Assembly (NCBI RefSeq): GCF_021021555.1
Contig: NZ_JAINWA010000001.1
Location: 930,001 to 994,000 of the forward strand
Direction: 5' to 3'
DNA: 64,000 bases
Origin: Teretinema zuelzerae
Lineage (GTDB): Bacteria; Spirochaetota; Spirochaetia; Treponematales; Treponemataceae
In this document: one piece after another, positions 1 through 48,460 of the stretch
How the letters are laid out: every line of letters begins with the position of its first letter
Position numbering within the stretch: position 1 is the stretch's first letter
The notes under the pieces: model-generated
What the model saw: the letters and a program-made list of their open reading frames with translations, nothing else
Databases searched by the model: none
What the model was told of the DNA's origin: nothing
Program-made: the position numbers and the translations under genes

Positions 1-60
1 CTATCAAAACCGGCTTCTTTCTTTTCCGAACCTGCATTTCACTCGTCCGGGTCAGATCAA

Positions 61-41559: not shown

Positions 41560-42296
41560 ACAAGAACGCGCAGAAACTGATTTCGGGGCTCGTGAAGGGC
41601 GAACAGCTGTACGAAGGCAAGGCGAAAAAAATCTTTGCAACGAACAATCCGGACCTCGTCATAATTGATTACAAGGACGACGCGACCGCCTTCAACGGAG
41701 AGAAAAAAGGACAGATCGAGTCGAAGGGAGTGCTGAACAACAGCATCGCGACCGGCCTTTTCGAGCTCCTCGAGAAAAAAGGCATCAAAACCCATTTCGT
41801 CGCAAAGCTTTCCGACCGCGAAATGCTCTGCCGCAAAGTATCGATCGTTCCCCTGGAAGTGATCACCCGCAACGTCGCCGCCGGCAGCTTTTCCAAACGC
41901 CTGGCAGTCGCCGAGGGAACAGCGCTCAAAACAACGGTATTCGAGATTTCCTATAAGGACGACGCTCTGGGCGACCCGCTCATCAACGACTACCACGCGG
42001 TAGCTATCGGCGCCGCGACCTGGAAAGAGCTTAAAACCATCTATAAGATGACGGACAAGATCAACCAAATCCTTTCGGCTTTTTTCTGGGACCGCGGAAT
42101 CAAGCTCATCGACTTCAAGCTCGAATTCGGCAAAACCGCAGACGGCGCAATTCTGCTCGCGGATGAAATTTCGCCGGACACCTGCCGTTTCTGGGATGCC
42201 AAAACCAATGAAAAACTCGACAAGGACAGATTCCGCAGAGATCTCGGAAACGTCCAGGAAGCGTACGTAGAAATTTTCAATAGAATATCCAAATGA
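41556..42296 (+). CDS. purC: Phosphoribosylaminoimidazole-succinocarboxamide synthase
   Basis: This 246-residue SAICAR synthase ligates aspartate to CAIR using ATP. The N-terminal ATP-grasp-like part [54 protein letters not shown] and the C-terminal [29 protein letters not shown] are characteristic. Length is the normal bacterial one. The start overlaps purE by 4 bases and the stop region overlaps a possible purF start, so the operon is tightly coupled. Confidence 0.97.
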
Positions 42297-42313
42297 ACCA
42301 ATCCGGAGCGACC

Positions 42314-43810
42314 ATGGAAACGATTTACGCTGAGGAAGAAGAAGGAAAGTTGAAGGATCACTGCGGCGTCATCGGAGTGTATCTTTCAAACCATGATCAA
42401 AACGCGTCGCGAATGGCGTACTACGGACTCCAGTCCCTGCAGCACCGGGGGCAGGAAAGCACCGGCCTCGCGGTGGCGGACGGCGAGAAAGTGGAGCACT
42501 TCCGCGCGATGGGACTTGTCGCGGACGTCTACAGCCGGGAGAAGCTTGCGGAATTATCGGGGCACATAGCCATCGGCCATGTACTGTATTCCACCTCCGG
42601 CAAGGCGACCATCGAAAACGCCCAGCCCTTCGTCTCGAAAGCCAAACTCGGAACCATCGCGGTCGCTCACAACGGAAGCCTCGTTAACACGGAGCCCATG
42701 AAGGAATTCCTTGAGGAGACTGGGTCGACCTTCACATCCTCGAGCGATTCTGAAGTGATCATCAAGCTTATCGCGAAGAACTATAAAAAAGGTCTTGAAA
42801 AAGCCCTCACCGATACGATCCAGCTGATAAAAGGGTCCTTCGCCCTCTGCGTGATGACGGAAAAAACCCTGATCGGAGCCCGCGATCCCAACGGCATCAG
42901 GCCGCTCTGCCTGGGCCAGCTCCAGAACGGCTGGGTGCTCGCGAGCGAATCCTGCGCGATTGACGCGATGGGCGGAGAGCTCGTCCGGGACATCGCGCCG
43001 GGAGAAATCGTCATCATCAACGACGACGGAGTTCTGTCCTTCAACTTCGGAGAGAAAACCTCGAAAAAAACGTGCATCTTCGAGTACGTCTATTTTGCCC
43101 GCCCCGATTCCATCATGGACGGAATCGGAGTGCAGGAAGCCCGCATAAAGATGGGGGAAGTCCTGGCCCGCGAATCGGGCGTCGCAGCGGACGTGGTCAT
43201 CGGCGTGCCTGATTCCGGAATCGGTTCGGCGATGGGTTTTTCGAAGGCTTCGGGAATTCCCTTCGCGATGGGAATTGTTAAAAACAAATATATCGGAAGA
43301 ACCTTCATCGCGCCTTCGCAGGAAGAGCGGGAAGCCATGGTGTTCGTCAAGCTGAACGCGCTGAAAAGCGATCTGTTCGGAAAACGCGTGGTCATCATCG
43401 ACGATTCGATCGTGCGGGGAACCACCAGCAGAAGGCTCATACAGATTCTGCGGAAGGCGGGAGCGAAGGAAGTGCATTTCCGCATATCGAGCCCTCCGGT
43501 CAAATTTCCCTGCTATTTCGGAATCGACACGCCCGCCCGCGCGGAGCTTATCTCCGCGACCCATGAAATAGAAGAAATCCGCCAGGCGATCGGCGCGGAT
43601 TCCCTCGCGTTCATTTCCATGGAAGGCATGATCGAAGCGCTCCAGTCCTGCGAATACGAGGACGACAAGGAAAGCGTCAGGACGAACACGAAGGCCGCAA
43701 CGCACCGGGACGGATTTTCGCCGAACGGAGCAAGCAACTGCGGCTATTGCCAGGGATGCTTTCTCGGAGAATATCCGATGCCGATGATCGGCGAAATCGG
43801 AAAGCGCTAA
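42314..43810 (+). CDS. purF: Amidophosphoribosyltransferase
   Basis: The enzyme makes phosphoribosylamine from PRPP and glutamine, the first committed purine step. The glutaminase N-terminal Cys follows a propeptide in KDHCGVIGVYLSN and must be exposed by cleavage. QSLQHRGQESTGLAVAD and the PRPP loop VVIIDDSIVRGTTSRR are intact, and GYCQGCFLGEYP near the C-terminus adds Cys residues of the type that hold a 4Fe-4S cluster in Bacillus-type PurF. I prefer ATG 42314 because CCGGAG is 5 bases upstream; an ATG at 42293 overlapping purC by 4 bases is equally in frame. The protein would be 498 residues. Confidence 0.96.
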   Translation: METIYAEEEEGKLKDHCGVIGVYLSNHDQNASRMAYYGLQSLQHRGQESTGLAVADGEKVEHFRAMGLVADVYSREKLAELSGHIAIGHVLYSTSGKATIENAQPFVSKAKLGTIAVAHNGSLVNTEPMKEFLEETGSTFTSSSDSEVIIKLIAKNYKKGLEKALTDTIQLIKGSFALCVMTEKTLIGARDPNGIRPLCLGQLQNGWVLASESCAIDAMGGELVRDIAPGEIVIINDDGVLSFNFGEKTSKKTCIFEYVYFARPDSIMDGIGVQEARIKMGEVLARESGVAADVVIGVPDSGIGSAMGFSKASGIPFAMGIVKNKYIGRTFIAPSQEEREAMVFVKLNALKSDLFGKRVVIIDDSIVRGTTSRRLIQILRKAGAKEVHFRISSPPVKFPCYFGIDTPARAELISATHEIEEIRQAIGADSLAFISMEGMIEALQSCEYEDDKESVRTNTKAATHRDGFSPNGASNCGYCQGCFLGEYPMPMIGEIGKR

Positions 43811-43835
43811 ACAGATACGACACAAGGAGCAGACG

Positions 43836-44864
43836 ATGATAGATTACCGCCAGTCCGGCGTCGACGTGGAAGAAGGATACAAGGCAGTCGACAACTATAA
43901 AACCAGCGCCAAGCGCACGATGATTCCGGGAGTATTGAACGGGCTCGGCAGCTTTGCCGGCATGTTCCAGCTTCCCCCGGGATACAAGGAGCCGGTCATC
44001 GTTTCCGGAACCGACGGCGTCGGCACGAAGCTGGACATCGCCTTCGCCATGAAAAAATACGACACGGTAGGAATCGACTGCGTCGCGATGTGCGTAAACG
44101 ACATCCTCTGCCACGGCGCGAAGCCGCTGTTCTTCCTTGACTACCTCGCCTGCGGAAAACTCGACGCGGAAGTCGCGGGAACACTGGTCAAAGGCGTCGC
44201 CGAAGGCTGTCTGCAGTCGAACGCGGCCCTGATGGGCGGAGAAACCGCGGAAATGCCCGGCTTCTACGACGCGGGGAAATACGATATCGCCGGATTCGCT
44301 GTCGGAGTCGCCGAAAAAGCCGACATAATCGACGGATCGAAAATACGGGAAGGCGACGTTCTCGTCGGGCTCGCCTCCTCCGGCGTCCACTCCAACGGAT
44401 TCTCCCTGGTAAGAAAACTGGTCACCGATTATTACGAGCCCTTCGGCGGAAAGCCGATCGGCGAAACGCTTCTCGAACCGACCCGCATCTACGTCAAACC
44501 GATACTCGCCCTCCTTGAACAGGTAGACGTTCACGGAATGGTGCATATCACCGGCGGCGGTTTTTACGAAAACATTCCGCGCATGTACACGCACGGAGGA
44601 GTGCACGGAGAAAAGAACGAAGCCCGCCTGGTGTCGATTCTAAAATCCGGCAGCTGGCCGGTTCCGCCGATTTTCGCCGAGCTTGTAAGAAGGGGCGCAA
44701 ATCCCGACAGAATGTACAATACCTATAACATGGGCATCGGCTACATCTGCGCGGTCTCGAAGGAAGACGCGGCGAAGACGATCGATTTCCTGAACGGCCA
44801 GGGCTTCCCCGCCTACGAAATAGGACGGGTGGGAACCGGCTCGACAGACGTCCTCTTTGAATAA
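43836..44864 (+). CDS. purM: Phosphoribosylformylglycinamidine cyclo-ligase
   Basis: The 342-residue AIR synthetase closes the imidazole ring with ATP. It has YRQSGVDVEEGYKAV at the N-terminus, SGTDGVGTKLDIAF, DCVAMCVNDILCHGAKPLFFLDYLA, GGETAEMPGFY and LASSGVHSNGFSLVRKL, all in the expected order for PurM. A good ribosome-binding site (AAGGAGCAG) lies before the ATG, 25 bases after purF. purN follows 4 bases after the stop. Confidence 0.97.
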   Translation: MIDYRQSGVDVEEGYKAVDNYKTSAKRTMIPGVLNGLGSFAGMFQLPPGYKEPVIVSGTDGVGTKLDIAFAMKKYDTVGIDCVAMCVNDILCHGAKPLFFLDYLACGKLDAEVAGTLVKGVAEGCLQSNAALMGGETAEMPGFYDAGKYDIAGFAVGVAEKADIIDGSKIREGDVLVGLASSGVHSNGFSLVRKLVTDYYEPFGGKPIGETLLEPTRIYVKPILALLEQVDVHGMVHITGGGFYENIPRMYTHGGVHGEKNEARLVSILKSGSWPVPPIFAELVRRGANPDRMYNTYNMGIGYICAVSKEDAAKTIDFLNGQGFPAYEIGRVGTGSTDVLFE

Positions 44865-44868
44865 GCCC

Positions 44869-45489
44869 ATGAAAATAGCAGTACTCGTTTCAGGCGGAGG
44901 CACGAACCTTCAGGCGCTGATCGACAATACCGGAAAAACATCCCCTGAAGAAGCCTACGAGATCGCATACGTCGGGGCGGACCGCGACTGCTTCGCGCTC
45001 GAACGGGCGCGAAAAGAGAGAATCCCCTGCGGAATCGAGTCCGCTCCGGCCGGAACGCCGAGGGCGGAGGCGCGCCGATTCGTATCGGACCGGATGCTGG
45101 ATAAAGCGAAAGAAGCCGGGGCAGACGCGATCGTCCTCGCGGGATTTTTGACGATACTCTCCGGAAACATTGTCGACGAGTACTCCGAACGCATACTGAA
45201 CCTCCACCCCGCCCTGCTGCCAAAGTTCGGCGGCCCGGGCATGTGGGGGCATCATGTCCATGAAGCGGTTCTCGCCGCGGGAGAACTTGAATCCGGATGC
45301 ACCGTGCATCTGGTGGATTCCGGCTGCGATACCGGGCCCATCCTGCTTCAGAAAAAAGTGCCGGTTCTGCCCGGCGACACCGCGGAGACCCTGGCGAAAA
45401 GAATAGCGTCTCACGAACACGAAGCTATTCTCGAAGGCGTCAAGCTGCTCGCGAAACGAGTGAACACGGAGAAGGCCCGCGCGCGCTGA
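44869..45489 (+). CDS. purN: Phosphoribosylglycinamide formyltransferase
   Basis: The 206-residue GAR transformylase uses 10-formyl-tetrahydrofolate. KIAVLVSGGGTNLQALID binds the phosphate of GAR, and the catalytic set Asn-His-Asp is seen in ILNLHPALLPKFGG and VHLVDSGCDTGPILLQ. Length is normal. I choose ATG 44869 over the upstream in-frame TTG inside the purM end. Purine genes purD, purL, purB and purK are not in this window. After purN the cluster is interrupted by corA before purH. Confidence 0.94.
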   Translation: MKIAVLVSGGGTNLQALIDNTGKTSPEEAYEIAYVGADRDCFALERARKERIPCGIESAPAGTPRAEARRFVSDRMLDKAKEAGADAIVLAGFLTILSGNIVDEYSERILNLHPALLPKFGGPGMWGHHVHEAVLAAGELESGCTVHLVDSGCDTGPILLQKKVPVLPGDTAETLAKRIASHEHEAILEGVKLLAKRVNTEKARAR

Positions 45490-45498
45490 CGATCAAGC

Positions 45499-45527
45499 TT
45501 GCACATCGATTGCCGGTGTGCTATTGT
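45499..45527 (+). promoter_or_regulatory. Promoter of the corA leader and gene
   Basis: TTGCAC (45499-45504), 17 bases, then TATTGT (45522-45527) with an extended -10 TG-C directly before it. Predicted transcription starts near 45534, giving corA a leader of about 170 bases that contains a short ORF. Confidence 0.6.
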
Positions 45528-45563
45528 TTACATGCAAATCTAAATTCGAGGAGGCAGTATCCC

Positions 45564-45644
45564 ATGGATACGGACCCTGGTAGTCGTAGCTACGAATATC
45601 AATCAAACACCGACAAGCCTCCCCGGAGAATCACCCTGCTCTGA
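45564..45644 (+). CDS. Putative Mg-sensing leader peptide upstream of corA
   Basis: A 26-codon ORF starts with ATG 9 bases after a strong ribosome-binding site, GAGGAGG (45548-45554), better than that of corA itself. The peptide starts MDTDPGSRSY and ends DKPPRRITLL. The acidic and Pro-containing N-terminus and the PPRR-hydrophobic end recall MgtL ([17 protein letters not shown]) of E. coli and CorL, whose translation tells the cell its Mg level. GGAGGC in its ribosome-binding site (45550-45555) can pair with GCCTCC (45617-45622) inside the ORF. The reading is inference from composition and position; there is no sequence identity good enough for homology. I suggest no gene name. Confidence 0.55.
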   Translation: MDTDPGSRSYEYQSNTDKPPRRITLL

Positions 45645-45658
45645 TTTCAGACGTCGCG

Positions 45659-45696
45659 CTCTCCCCGGTCAGGCCATAAACCCGAGACAGGGAGAG
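45659..45696 (+). promoter_or_regulatory. Inverted repeat hiding the corA ribosome-binding site
   Basis: CTCTCCC (45659-45665) pairs with GGGAGAG (45690-45696), which is the corA ribosome-binding site 7 bases before the ATG. CCTCCCC inside the leader ORF (45618-45624) could pair with the same site, giving a possible switch between two structures that depends on ribosomes on the leader ORF. Confidence 0.55.
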
Positions 45697-45703
45697 AACC
45701 CGC

Positions 45704-46702
45704 ATGATAACCCTTTGGAAACAGGAAAACCGCAAACTGGTCGAGACGGATAACCGCGAAGGCCGCATCTGGGTCGACGCGCGCAACGTCACCAGAGAAG
45801 ACATCCGCACGCTCGAAGCGGATTACGGCATCGATACGGAAATCATCATGGACATCCTCGACCAGGACGAGCTTTCCCGCATCGACCGCGAGGACGACTA
45901 CACCCTCATGATCGTCCGCCTCCCCATATTCATCTCCGCGAACGAGGTGAGCTACTTCACCATCCCCCTCGGAATCCTGCTGTTTCCCGAAATGATCGTG
46001 ACCATCTGCTGGGCCGACTGCGAGGTGCTCAACGATCTGACGAACAACCGGGTGCGCGGACTTTCGCTCGGCGATTTGCCTGCCTTCGTCGTCCGCGTGC
46101 TGACGAGAGCCGACCTCATATTCTTGCGCTACCTGAAGGAAATCAACCGACGCTCGAATTCAATCGAACTGGAGCTTCAGAAATCGGTGCGGAACAACGA
46201 ACTGATTCAGCTTCTCAATCTTGAAAAATCGCTTACCTACTTTACGACGAGCCTGAAAAGCAACCAGCTGCTTTTTGAAAAACTGATGAAGACTCGCCTC
46301 ATCCAGCTGGACGAGGAAGACCGGGACTGGCTCGAAGACGTCGCAATAGACAACCGCCAGGCCATCGAAATGGCCGACATCTACAGCAACATCCTTTCCG
46401 GAATGATGGACGCGTTCGCTTCCGTCATCTCGAACAATCTTTCGATAGTAATGAAGCGGCTCACCGTCATCAACCTGGTGCTCATGATCCCGACGATGAT
46501 CACCAGCTTCTTCGGCATGAACGTACGGCTGCCCTTCTCTGATATGGACATGTTGATATCGGTTCCCGCGATATTGGGAATCTGCCTGCTGTCGTCGTTT
46601 TTGGCCATGTTCCTGCTCAGGGATAAAAAACCCAGGCGCAAGGACGCCGACGCCGCTGAACGAAAACGGCTGAGGCGTAAAAACCGCGCCGTCCAGGTAT
46701 AA
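45704..46702 (+). CDS. corA: Magnesium/cobalt transporter CorA
   Basis: The 332-residue protein is a CorA-type channel. A long cytosolic N-terminal domain (about 1-265) with the coiled stalk helix is followed by two C-terminal membrane helices joined by the GMN signature (TSFFGMNVRLPF). CorA forms a pentamer and admits Mg and Co when cytosolic Mg is low. The end is a basic tail, RKDADAAERKRLRRKNRAVQV. It lies between purN and purH but has its own promoter and a leader with a short ORF and an inverted repeat at the ribosome-binding site, which suggests Mg-dependent expression. ACAGGGAGAG is the ribosome-binding site. Confidence 0.95.
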   Translation: MITLWKQENRKLVETDNREGRIWVDARNVTREDIRTLEADYGIDTEIIMDILDQDELSRIDREDDYTLMIVRLPIFISANEVSYFTIPLGILLFPEMIVTICWADCEVLNDLTNNRVRGLSLGDLPAFVVRVLTRADLIFLRYLKEINRRSNSIELELQKSVRNNELIQLLNLEKSLTYFTTSLKSNQLLFEKLMKTRLIQLDEEDRDWLEDVAIDNRQAIEMADIYSNILSGMMDAFASVISNNLSIVMKRLTVINLVLMIPTMITSFFGMNVRLPFSDMDMLISVPAILGICLLSSFLAMFLLRDKKPRRKDADAAERKRLRRKNRAVQV

Positions 46703-46749
46703 ATCCGCTTTTTAGTTTCTTGAAAAGCATTTCACAACCTGAAGCTGCG

Positions 46750-46778
46750 TTGAAGAATTGCCATTTTTCTGCTATATT
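46750..46778 (+). promoter_or_regulatory. purH promoter
   Basis: TTGAAG (46750-46755) is followed after 17 bases by TATATT (46773-46778). The purH ATG lies 35 bases downstream with GAAGGGG as ribosome-binding site, so purH can be expressed apart from corA. Confidence 0.65.
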
Positions 46779-46813
46779 CTGTCATCCATTACCATTTGAT
46801 GAAGGGGTCGCAG

Positions 46814-48460
46814 ATGAAAAAGCGCGCACTGATCAGCGTATTCTATAAGGACGGAGTGCTCGAGCTGGCACAGTATCTTGCCTCGAAAGGATGGGAGATA
46901 CTTTCCACCGGCGGAACGAAAAAGCATTTAGCCGACGCAGGAGTTCCCGTCACGGACGTAAGCGCCGTCACCGGATTTCCCGAATGTCTCGACGGGCGGG
47001 TAAAAACCCTCCACCCCAAGATACACGCAGGCATTCTCGGAATACGCAACAACCCCGAACACGCGAAAACAATGGAGGACCTCGGAGTAGATCCCATCGA
47101 TCTGGTGTGCGTCAACCTCTATCCTTTTTTTGAAAAAGTACAGGCGGGCCTTTCGTTTGAAGAAACGGTCGAATTCATAGACATCGGCGGACCGACGATG
47201 CTCCGTTCAGCCGCGAAAAATCACGACGACGTTCTGGTGCTCACCGAAGCGGCCGACTATGCCGAAGTCATGGCAGAACTCGACGCGGCCGGACAGGATA
47301 CGCAGAAGGTTTCGAGAGACCTCAAGCGCCGGCTCGCCGGAAAGGTATTCAACCTGACGAGCGCATACGACGCGGCGGTTGCCCGCTTTATGCTGGGCGA
47401 AGCCGCAGCTCCAGCATCCGGAAAATCGCCGTTATGGCCCGAATACTTCACCGTTCCGTACAAGAAAGCCCAGTCTCTACGCTACGGCGAAAACGGCCAT
47501 CAACAGGCGGCGCTCTACCTCAACGCAGATTCAGTCGGGGCCTTCGGCGGAATGAAGCAGCTCCAGGGTAAAGAACTTTCCTACAACAACATGAGAGATC
47601 TCGACATCGCGTGGAAGGCGGCCTGCGCCTACGGCGAGTTCATGAAATCCCTGCCCGAAGCATTCCCCGCCGCTCCCGAAACGAAGGCTCCGGTGATCTG
47701 CGTTGCGCTCAAGCACAATACGCCCTGCGGAGCGGCTCTCGGAAAAACCGTTCTCGAAGCATATCAGCGAACCTTCCTGGTCGACCCGGTGTCGATCTTC
47801 GGAGGAATAGTCGGATGCAACACGATCATCGACGCAACGGCGGCCTCGGAAATGATTAAAACCTTCCTTGAAGTCGTCGTAGCGCCCGGGTTTACCGCCG
47901 AAGCCCTCGAGATATTCTCCGCGAAAAAGAATCTCCGCCTCGTGCAGGCCGAAACAAAGCCGAACGCCATTACCGAAACGCTCAGCGTGGACGGGGGCAT
48001 CCTGGTACAGGAACGCGACAACACCCTTTTTTCAGACTGGAAGGTGGTTACCGAAAAAGCTCCCACCGCCGAACAGGCCGCCGACATGGCATTCGGAATG
48101 ACTATGGCGCTTTTCGTCAAGTCGAACGCGATAGTCGTGGTAAAAGACAGGGTCGCGGTCGGGCTCGCCGGCGGCCAGGTGAACCGCATATGGCCGACCG
48201 AGCAATCCCTTGCCCGGGCTAAAATCCTGACGGACGCGGGCCTCCCCTGCCTCGACGGAAAAACATCCACCGGAGGCGCAGAGGTTATGATCTCTGACGC
48301 CTTCTTCCCCTTTGCCGATTGCGTCGAAATGGCCGCGAAGTACGGAATCAAGGCGATCGTCCAGCCGGGAGGCTCCATGCGCGACCAGGAATCCATAGAC
48401 GCGGCGAACCGCCTGGGGATCGCGATGGTATTCACCGGAACGCGCCACTTCAAGCACTGA
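46814..48460 (+). CDS. purH: Bifunctional AICAR transformylase / IMP cyclohydrolase
   Basis: The 548-residue protein carries out the last two purine steps. The N-terminal IMP cyclohydrolase part has ALISVFYKDGVLELAQYLASKGWEILSTGGT and GFPECLDGRVKTLHPKIHAGIL. The C-terminal transformylase part has RYGENGHQQAALYLN, VALKHNTPCGAALG (Lys-His pair), GGQVNRIW, SDAFFPFAD and GGSMRDQESIDAAN. I place the start at MKKRALISVF with AGGGG upstream. It is separated from purE-purN by corA. A hairpin terminator follows. Confidence 0.97.
   Translation: MKKRALISVFYKDGVLELAQYLASKGWEILSTGGTKKHLADAGVPVTDVSAVTGFPECLDGRVKTLHPKIHAGILGIRNNPEHAKTMEDLGVDPIDLVCVNLYPFFEKVQAGLSFEETVEFIDIGGPTMLRSAAKNHDDVLVLTEAADYAEVMAELDAAGQDTQKVSRDLKRRLAGKVFNLTSAYDAAVARFMLGEAAAPASGKSPLWPEYFTVPYKKAQSLRYGENGHQQAALYLNADSVGAFGGMKQLQGKELSYNNMRDLDIAWKAACAYGEFMKSLPEAFPAAPETKAPVICVALKHNTPCGAALGKTVLEAYQRTFLVDPVSIFGGIVGCNTIIDATAASEMIKTFLEVVVAPGFTAEALEIFSAKKNLRLVQAETKPNAITETLSVDGGILVQERDNTLFSDWKVVTEKAPTAEQAADMAFGMTMALFVKSNAIVVVKDRVAVGLAGGQVNRIWPTEQSLARAKILTDAGLPCLDGKTSTGGAEVMISDAFFPFADCVEMAAKYGIKAIVQPGGSMRDQESIDAANRLGIAMVFTGTRHFKH

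Follow-up and report, generated by a model that had tools for sequence, protein, structure and literature searches.

The short open reading frame that begins 140 nt upstream of corA in the window considered here (the whole stretch of 64,000 nucleotides, from the 3.62-Mb genome of the spirochaete Teretinema zuelzerae) is best read as a CorL-like sensor leader peptide, one of a family that would control Mg2+ transporter genes in several phyla by way of ribosomes that pause or abort translation when Mg2+ is low. I give this reading a probability of about 0.65. The frame starts MDTDPGS behind a strong Shine-Dalgarno (SD) sequence. Comparison between loci shows the leader to be a conserved coding unit, its conserved serine codon to be AGU, and the family to which it belongs to precede unrelated families of Mg2+ transporters.

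The original prediction described a promoter, a GAGGAGG placed 9 bases before the ATG (45564) of a 26-codon frame, an inverted repeat CTCTCCC/GGGAGAG, and corA, and a base-level reading bears out all of these at the positions given in Table 1. The 26 residues are also the last of a longer mechanical ORF (45297-45644). A C-rich stretch, CCTCCCC, lies inside the leader at 45618-45624, and 7 nt separate GGGAGAG from the ATG of corA (45704). A loose promoter pattern (TTGnnn-16..18-T[AG]nnnT) is found upstream of the leader uORF in 61 of 75 leaders, as compared to 17.5% of base-shuffled stretches; the promoter of the window is not among the matches of a stricter sigma-70 scan (9/12 matches). To the eye, corA with its own promoter sits amid genes of the purine type (window 42293-48460), with purF, purM, and purN upstream and purH downstream.

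Table 1. Features of the corA leader region, in positions of the 64-kb window.
Feature	Position	Strand	Detail or basis
Promoter-like TTGCAC-17-TATTGT, extended -10 (TGC)	45499-45527	+	TTGCAC 45499-45504, TATTGT 45522-45527
Leader SD GAGGAGG (45548-45554); GGAGGC (45550-45555) forms the 5' side of stem P1	45548-45555	+	Sequence; P1 pairing in 10/10 nearest sequences
Predicted hairpin P2, GTATC (45557-45561) with GATAC (45567-45571), leader start codon in loop	45557-45571	+	RNAalifold, 10 nearest sequences, 9/10 as aligned
CorL-like leader ORF MDTDPGSRSYEYQSNTDKPPRRITLL, 26 codons plus TGA	45564-45644	+	Sequence, conservation
Codons 5-8, CCT GGT AGT CGT, all four rare and ending in U; the conserved serine codon is AGT (45582-45584)	45576-45587	+	Codon usage; leader comparison
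GCCTCC within the ORF, forming the 3' side of P1 as anti-SD to the leader's own SD	45617-45622	+	10/10 nearest sequences, one compensatory change (L009)
Predicted hairpin P4, CTCTCCC (45659-45665) with GGGAGAG (45690-45696), covering the corA SD	45659-45696	+	p 0.013 against shuffled spacer; modelled
corA, Mg2+ transporter CorA	45704-46702	+	PF01544, E 6.9e-51

CorA was sought in 59 genomes (that of the window included) and then in 291 genomes of the same order, and upstream DNA was taken from 36 corA orthologues and from 80 others among the matches listed. One locus with only 5 nt upstream (L105) was dropped, leaving 115. I will refer to families and genera of genomes by arbitrary labels (f1, f3, f4, f5 and g1, g3). 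Leaders were recognized by a rule blind to codons, which takes the best SD-preceded short ORF with an acidic residue at positions 2-5 and a serine at positions 4-10. The rule finds a leader at 61 of the 115 corA loci and at 13 of 236 control ORFs (mechanical ORFs of at least 150 codons with an SD, rather than curated genes). A curated version, which accepts weaker SDs and includes five cases added by hand, finds one at 75 of the 115; here too the choice was made by peptide (acidic and serine-rich), not by codon. The expectation that an acidic leader of the MgtL or CorL kind would be conserved holds by either count, and pairings over SDs are present as well (see below). The 40 loci with no recognized leader comprise 31 from genus g3, 14 other loci of which do have a leader, five from f5, and four from elsewhere in f1. 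Among the distant CorA relatives L038-L042 and L044-L049, no ORF of the MDxDPGS type appears in the stretches seen, several gene starts being uncertain and L043 excluded.

The leaders vary in length from 11 to about 55 amino acids, and their sequences are highly variable past residue 8 or so. What persists is the beginning: MDTDPGS or MDSDPGS in family f1 (MDGGSSS and MDSGSS in its genus g3), MPDPDSC, MDPDGSC, and MPDSDGHSS in f4, and MSDSDGGSS and MSGTDGGGSS in f5/f3. The relatives had been predicted to share both an acidic, proline-bearing N-terminus and an end of the PPRR type. The first is conserved, but the second is not: the C-rich stretch beneath it is kept as nucleotides, in frames that differ and so yield KPPR from the window, SLPG from L004, and SLPV from L005. 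The manner in which the N-terminus is conserved may be seen in 18 distinct leaders of the MDxDPGS type, representing 26 loci selected for serine at codon 7 (L052, with asparagine there, was left out). Codons 2, 4, 5, and 6 change mostly at the third base (GAT/GAC, CCT/CCC/CCG, GGC/GGT/GGA), preserving Asp, Pro, and Gly, and codon 3 varies in its first base as well, while all 18 have AGT at codon 7. Since third bases vary at codons 2 and 4-6 and AGT is fixed, the frame is read as protein, with an additional constraint on the serine codon.

The beginning of the leader is also specific to its place in the genome. The pattern of the first seven codons, ATGGAYNNNGANCCNGGNAGT, has a single match in each of 17 of the 59 genomes, all 17 within a corA leader by coordinates. 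It has a second site in none of the 59, and reversed-pattern controls have no matches in them at all. With GGAGG placed before it, the motif was then sought in the GTDB collection of 84,980 species, yielding 39 stretches from spirochaetes, Clostridia, Chloroflexi, Kiritimatiellae, and others; ten genomes with such matches again have a single occurrence of the motif each. Brucepastera parasyntrophica (L151) is one of the species with the leader. Of these stretches, 34 precede a gene for CorA (26: 24 by tblastn, L158, on the contig of L015, and L163, where the start of CorA is visible), MgtE (six: L131, L137, L138, L148, L156, and L161), an NRAMP protein (L168), or an ABC permease (L132). The CorA proteins of Clostridia at L160, L164, and L165 are 44-46% identical to that of the window. 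The other five (L134, L139, L143, L146, and L152) have no Rfam match, and their downstream role is unexplained or the matches are due to chance. As judged by these matches, the system is much wider than the spirochaetes.

The permease of the actinomycete L132 (L132:7276-7998, PF00528), behind a leader that reads MDDDPGS, is 53% identical (E 1e-79) to permeases that follow M-boxes at L180 and L185. Because of that resemblance, L132 was counted with the transporter matches; an Rfam scan finds no M-box at the L132 locus itself. The permease of the three loci is a candidate for an ABC importer of Mg2+ or other metals. In Ktedonobacter racemifer (L168:6381-7998), a leader reading MDPDPGS stands before a protein of the NRAMP family (PF01566, E 6.6e-68), possibly an NRAMP of the Mg2+ type. 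At L138:1972-3531, an MgtE gene of Kiritimatiellae follows a leader beginning MDEDPGSSRLFVTVTNRVPPGK, and an Rfam scan of that locus likewise gives no M-box.

Elsewhere the leader and the M-box occur together. An M-box lies immediately upstream of the leader at four (L148, L156, L160, and L165) of the 12 loci scanned with Rfam, an order seen in some Clostridia, Halothermothrix, and Chloroflexi; L131 has too little upstream DNA to reveal one. With a leader behind an M-box, two Mg2+ sensors would therefore act in series. (A THF riboswitch lies on the opposite strand near the M-box, leader, and corA of L165, at L165:4518-4615 (+).) Around the window the situation is different: M-box model RF00380 has no match at 45400-45800 nor, under stricter filters, anywhere in the genome, and the same filters find an M-box in only one of 49 surrounding genomes, away from its corA locus (G028:C1:1766319-1766474, L169).

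Short uORFs could also be sought behind M-boxes independently of the leader motif, in 30 of the 48 Bacillota M-boxes listed and all 13 of those from Chloroflexota. An SD-preceded short uORF follows the M-box at 18 of the 30 and 12 of the 13, respectively. Among 30 TPP riboswitch loci of Bacillota (out of many more), four have such a uORF, two of them resembling thiS by eye, a control in which genes start nearer the riboswitch and so leave less room for uORFs. Codon 2 of the M-box uORFs encodes Asp or Glu in 15/18 Bacillota and 7/12 Chloroflexota, altogether 22/30 as compared to 25/255 long ORFs, mechanical ones with an SD as before (Fisher p 1e-13), with such examples as MDADPEP, MDDPDAD, METDPGR, MDSDGDSS, MDAGPSSS, MDGDGSR, and MEEGGSH. 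The exceptions are L240, L246, L250, L251, and L252 in Chloroflexota and L180, L185, and L202 in Bacillota; the first two of these three each have an acidic uORF as well, passed over by the rule. The rule finds no uORF at 12 loci of Bacillota and one of Chloroflexota (L242), although one of the 12, L204, visibly has METDPGR with a G-rich SD.

Comparison of modelled RNA structures shows that pairings covering either the leader's own SD or the SD of the transporter recur in several clades. The original prediction held that CTCTCCC after the ORF and the C-rich stretch within it could both cover the corA site. The former does pair with the SD of corA in the model, but the conserved partner of the latter is the uORF's own SD, in a stem (P1, GGAGGC/GCCTCC) present in all ten of the nearest sequences (nine from the genus of the window, plus G028). 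A test for covariation had been proposed in the region 45548-45696, and there is one compensatory change in P1 (in L009, from G028), but the stem to the leader's own SD stands out from dinucleotide-shuffled targets (p<0.05) in just one of the ten. The corresponding count for the stem to the transporter SD is four of ten. Over all leaders the counts are 30/83 for the own-SD stem and 24/81 for the transporter-SD stem, all p values ignoring shared descent among related genomes and so overstating independence. By group, the two stems are significant in 10 and 13 of 18 from f5/f3, 16 and 7 of 34 others from f1, none of 13 from f4, and 3 and 0 of the eight leaders that come from beyond the order. 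In the window the values are p 0.196 and p 0.013. (One locus in these statistics and in those on ribosome states, L161, has its transporter start set about 9 nt early.) In three loci of g3 (L035, L101, and L107), the leader SD lies in a self-complementary stretch (AAAGGAGGCTCCTTT in L035), besides its pairing with the ORF.

These structures bring up the most serious alternative, that the conserved element is an RNA that senses Mg2+, folded into a three-way junction around the start codon, and that the reading frame is secondary. The consensus of 16 sequences from f5/f3 is such a fold, P1 enclosing two hairpins, with a further hairpin over the corA SD, and 13 of its 31 pairs have changed on both sides; the same is true of 9 of 32 pairs in the consensus of 13 sequences from f4. 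The frequency of significant own-SD stems and the conservation of the C-rich anti-SD across reading frames would also fit an RNA sensor, and in E. coli the uORFs of the mgtA and corA leaders, too, lie within a three-way junction (PMC11552253; this and the other papers cited by PMC number were available in part, and statements drawn from them are limited to those parts). Set against this is the variation at third positions in the 18 MDxDPGS leaders, where Asp, Pro, and Gly stay. Moreover, taking all leaders together, structure over codons 2-16 is not above that of synonymous recodings (mean z -0.20, p 0.10; f5/f3 -0.92). The predicted folds differ from clade to clade, while the order SD, ATG, acidic residues, AGT is constant, and the only Rfam match at the leader of the window up to E 5 is to an sRNA, at chance level and on the opposite strand. 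I consider an RNA sensor unlikely as an account of the family.

How pairing might respond to a translating ribosome was modelled for 70 leaders that do not overlap the transporter gene. With no ribosome, the transporter SD is predicted to be less accessible than in shuffles (0.27 vs 0.35), and, relative to shuffles, a ribosome placed near codon 7-8 leaves it more open than does a ribosome that has reached the stop codon (+0.037 vs -0.074). Under a model of a switch like that of trp, 21 of the 70 score above +0.1 and nine below -0.1. The leader of the window does not respond in this way: its corA SD has a modelled unpaired probability of 0.03, 0.02, and 0.02 with the ribosome absent, stalled, and at the stop, that is, buried in every state, which does not bear out the original proposal that ribosomes on the ORF choose the pairing at this site. 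A different arrangement is found in ten leaders (L018 among them) that overrun the start of corA, all ten reading past its ATGA in the frame to which the TGA is no stop, a choice partly forced because that TGA must be avoided. Seven of them stop 29-86 nt inside corA and three beyond the 61 nt read.

The codon used for serine is as distinctive as the residue. AGT accounts for 110 of 164 serine codons at codons 4-10 of the 75 leaders and occurs at least once in 72 of them, whereas it makes up 7.8% of serine codons over the opening 200 codons of 41 transporter genes. In the five genes that neighbor the leader of the window, AGT is absent (0/110 Ser, 0/1943 codons), and codons 5-8 of the leader are used there 3.1, 2.6, 0.0, and 1.0 times per 1000. 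In a larger set of 83 leaders, including eight found by a pattern containing AGT (present also in the stem statistics and the comparison with synonymous recodings, but excluded from the AGT counts of leaders above), T stands in third position in 54, 49, 73, and 55% of leaders at codons 5-8, as compared to 12% for codon 4 and 18% within transporter genes. That AGT is merely the rarest codon would suffice for the window, but rarity alone does not explain AGT in general, because AT-rich leaders keep it: 35 of 52 serine codons in 24 such leaders, versus 11 of 114 within the initial 200 codons of nine corA genes from these loci. Two further candidates were rejected. AGT as the loop of a hairpin fits the f5/f3 clade but not the leaders overall, by the same test against synonymous recoding, and a stop codon created by AGT in the -1 frame is, by inspection, not universal. 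AGU may instead act through slow G-U wobble decoding at the moment the acidic chain has grown to 4-8 residues.

The AGC and AGU codons for serine are read by the same tRNA, and the predominance of AGU therefore sits poorly with attenuation in response to the supply of Ser, Gly, or Pro rather than Mg2+. Runs of AGT and the rare codons 5-8 would suit attenuation, as would the response of the Salmonella mgtP leader to charged tRNA-Pro (PMC8092293), but with metal transporter genes downstream and M-boxes in tandem, I regard it as improbable. Least probable of all is a peptide whose action follows its synthesis, such as the binding to the transporter proposed for mycobacterial Rv1805A (PMC12810186), for despite the conserved N-terminus that it would explain, the leaders range widely in length and diverge after residue 8, precede four unrelated transporter families, conserve a codon beyond the residue it encodes, and in some cases run into the transporter gene.

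The preferred reading, a sensor leader peptide, may be put as follows. I infer that the family depends on Mg2+. When the ribosome is low in Mg2+, a short acidic nascent chain containing Pro or Gly, together with slow codons 5-8, would cause it to pause or abort early, at codons 4-8, and when Mg2+ is ample, it would read the leader to the end. Completion of the leader would turn the transporter off, and failure to complete it would turn the transporter on. The output stage would be specific to lineage, akin to the expression platform of a riboswitch: stems over the transporter SD (clearest in f5/f3, and also in the window), leaders that run out of frame into the transporter gene (the ten loci noted above), or Rho termination, as published for E. 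coli and Salmonella. Precedents exist for the steps. Sensing of Mg2+ through aborted translation of a leader has been described for enterobacteria, where Asp2 and Glu5 of mgtQ destabilize ribosomes, abort translation, and free mgtB (PMC8092293), and in bacteria a run of acidic residues can cut translation short (PMC9718836). The leader of the window has an acidic N-terminus (MDTD), which may serve intrinsic ribosome destabilization. Counting against the mechanism are the 40 corA loci with no recognized leader, the corA SD of the window, modelled as buried irrespective of the ribosome, the near absence of individually significant own-SD stems in the ten nearest relatives, the lack of either stem in GC-rich f4 and of a significant transporter-SD stem in the eight leaders from outside the order, and the composition of E. 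coli CorL, whose one acidic residue and one proline are weak by published criteria for destabilization.

A bolder generalization, which I offer tentatively and at somewhat worse than even odds, is that of a pan-bacterial translational sensor of Mg2+, in which an acidic nascent peptide, combined with the serine codon AGU and its decoding through G-U wobble, would form a Mg2+-sensitive decoding trap, joined to many expression platforms and transporter families (CorA, MgtE, NRAMP, and possibly a new ABC importer), often in series with an M-box, and with CorL as one member. The findings suggest that Mg2+ sensing by the ribosome is either ancient or repeatedly evolved. They offer a reason for the uORFs behind M-boxes, provide a sequence tag by which Mg2+ transporter genes may be found, including an ABC permease with no assigned role, and single out Asp2, the Pro/Gly and Ser residues, and the AGU codon as testable in E. 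coli. The literature searched, whose coverage leaves out most subscription journals, was queried for mgtE and corA leader peptides, M-box uORFs, corL, and spirochaete uORFs; in the text available it contains no report of the family beyond enterobacteria and, as the original prediction had it, no case in spirochaetes, and queries with the leader peptide strings gave a mention of MgtL alone.

Several known systems resemble this one in part. The M-box (ykoK, RF00380) senses Mg2+ for the same target genes as the leader family, but it does so as an RNA aptamer. Rv1805A (uORF2) is a conserved small uORF between the mycobacterial M-box and its operon, as in the tandems of leader and M-box; compared by description only, it has a conserved Pro at position 7 and is described as specific to mycobacteria (PMC12810186). 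A survey of 50 bacterial genomes put forward eight uORF candidates, with ilvB and fthC among those described in the available text (PMC11109978). MgtQ, from the mgtC-mgtB intergenic region of Salmonella, shares with the family its early acidic residues (Asp2/Glu5), a strong AGGAGG, and, as would hold for the family, an abortion of translation that opens the ribosome-binding site of a transporter, but it has only 8 amino acids, lies between genes of an operon, and its relatives named in the accessible text are enterobacterial only (PMC8092293).

The kinship with MgtL and CorL proposed originally is uneven. MgtL, the leader of mgtA, has an acidic N-terminus with proline (MEPDP), a Mg2+ transporter downstream, and an SD able to form a duplex (-17.3 kcal/mol, with no shuffle control) with a part of the leader RNA past the ORF. 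It differs in preceding a P-type ATPase gene and in having no AGT serine, and its local alignment with the peptide of the window is equaled by 6.9% of shuffles (p 0.069), so I do not take it as the nearest relative. CorL is nearer. Upstream of corA in E. coli K-12 lies ysgD (b4799), taken to be corL from its TTG start and position, which begins TTG GAC ACA CCC AGT AGA TAC TGG (MDTPSRYW). A leader of this form, MD[T/S/A/I][P/H]SR, is found at 19 of 30 corA loci fetched from Pseudomonadota (drawn from 58 matching among 398 genomes), with AGT at codon 5 by eye in all 19; the other 11 are L269 and L270, whose CorA is 84-85% identical, and nine at 48-52%. Translation of corL is inverse to that of corA and regulated by Mg2+, the mechanism of sensing being stated as uncharacterized (PMC11552253).

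CorL differs from the leader of the window in its TTG start, its 18 amino acids, and its lack of DPG. Its output is known to be Rho-dependent termination in E. coli and Salmonella. Their relation would be a shared motif, by descent or convergence, in peptides too short for a tree. Among the spirochaetes, MDTYPSSYR (L024) and MPDSDGHSSQ (L032) come close to CorL. The window itself has what characterizes CorL-like leaders, a short ORF with an SD between promoter and corA and, within MDTDPGS, an N-terminal Asp, the sequence P/H-(G)-S, and an AGT serine. CorL and the leader of the window have in common a short ORF upstream of corA, Asp at codon 2, the pattern M-D-T-x-P-x-S with its serine encoded by AGT and followed by R-Y, and a leader stem able to cover the SD of the uORF (for CorL, PMC11552253).
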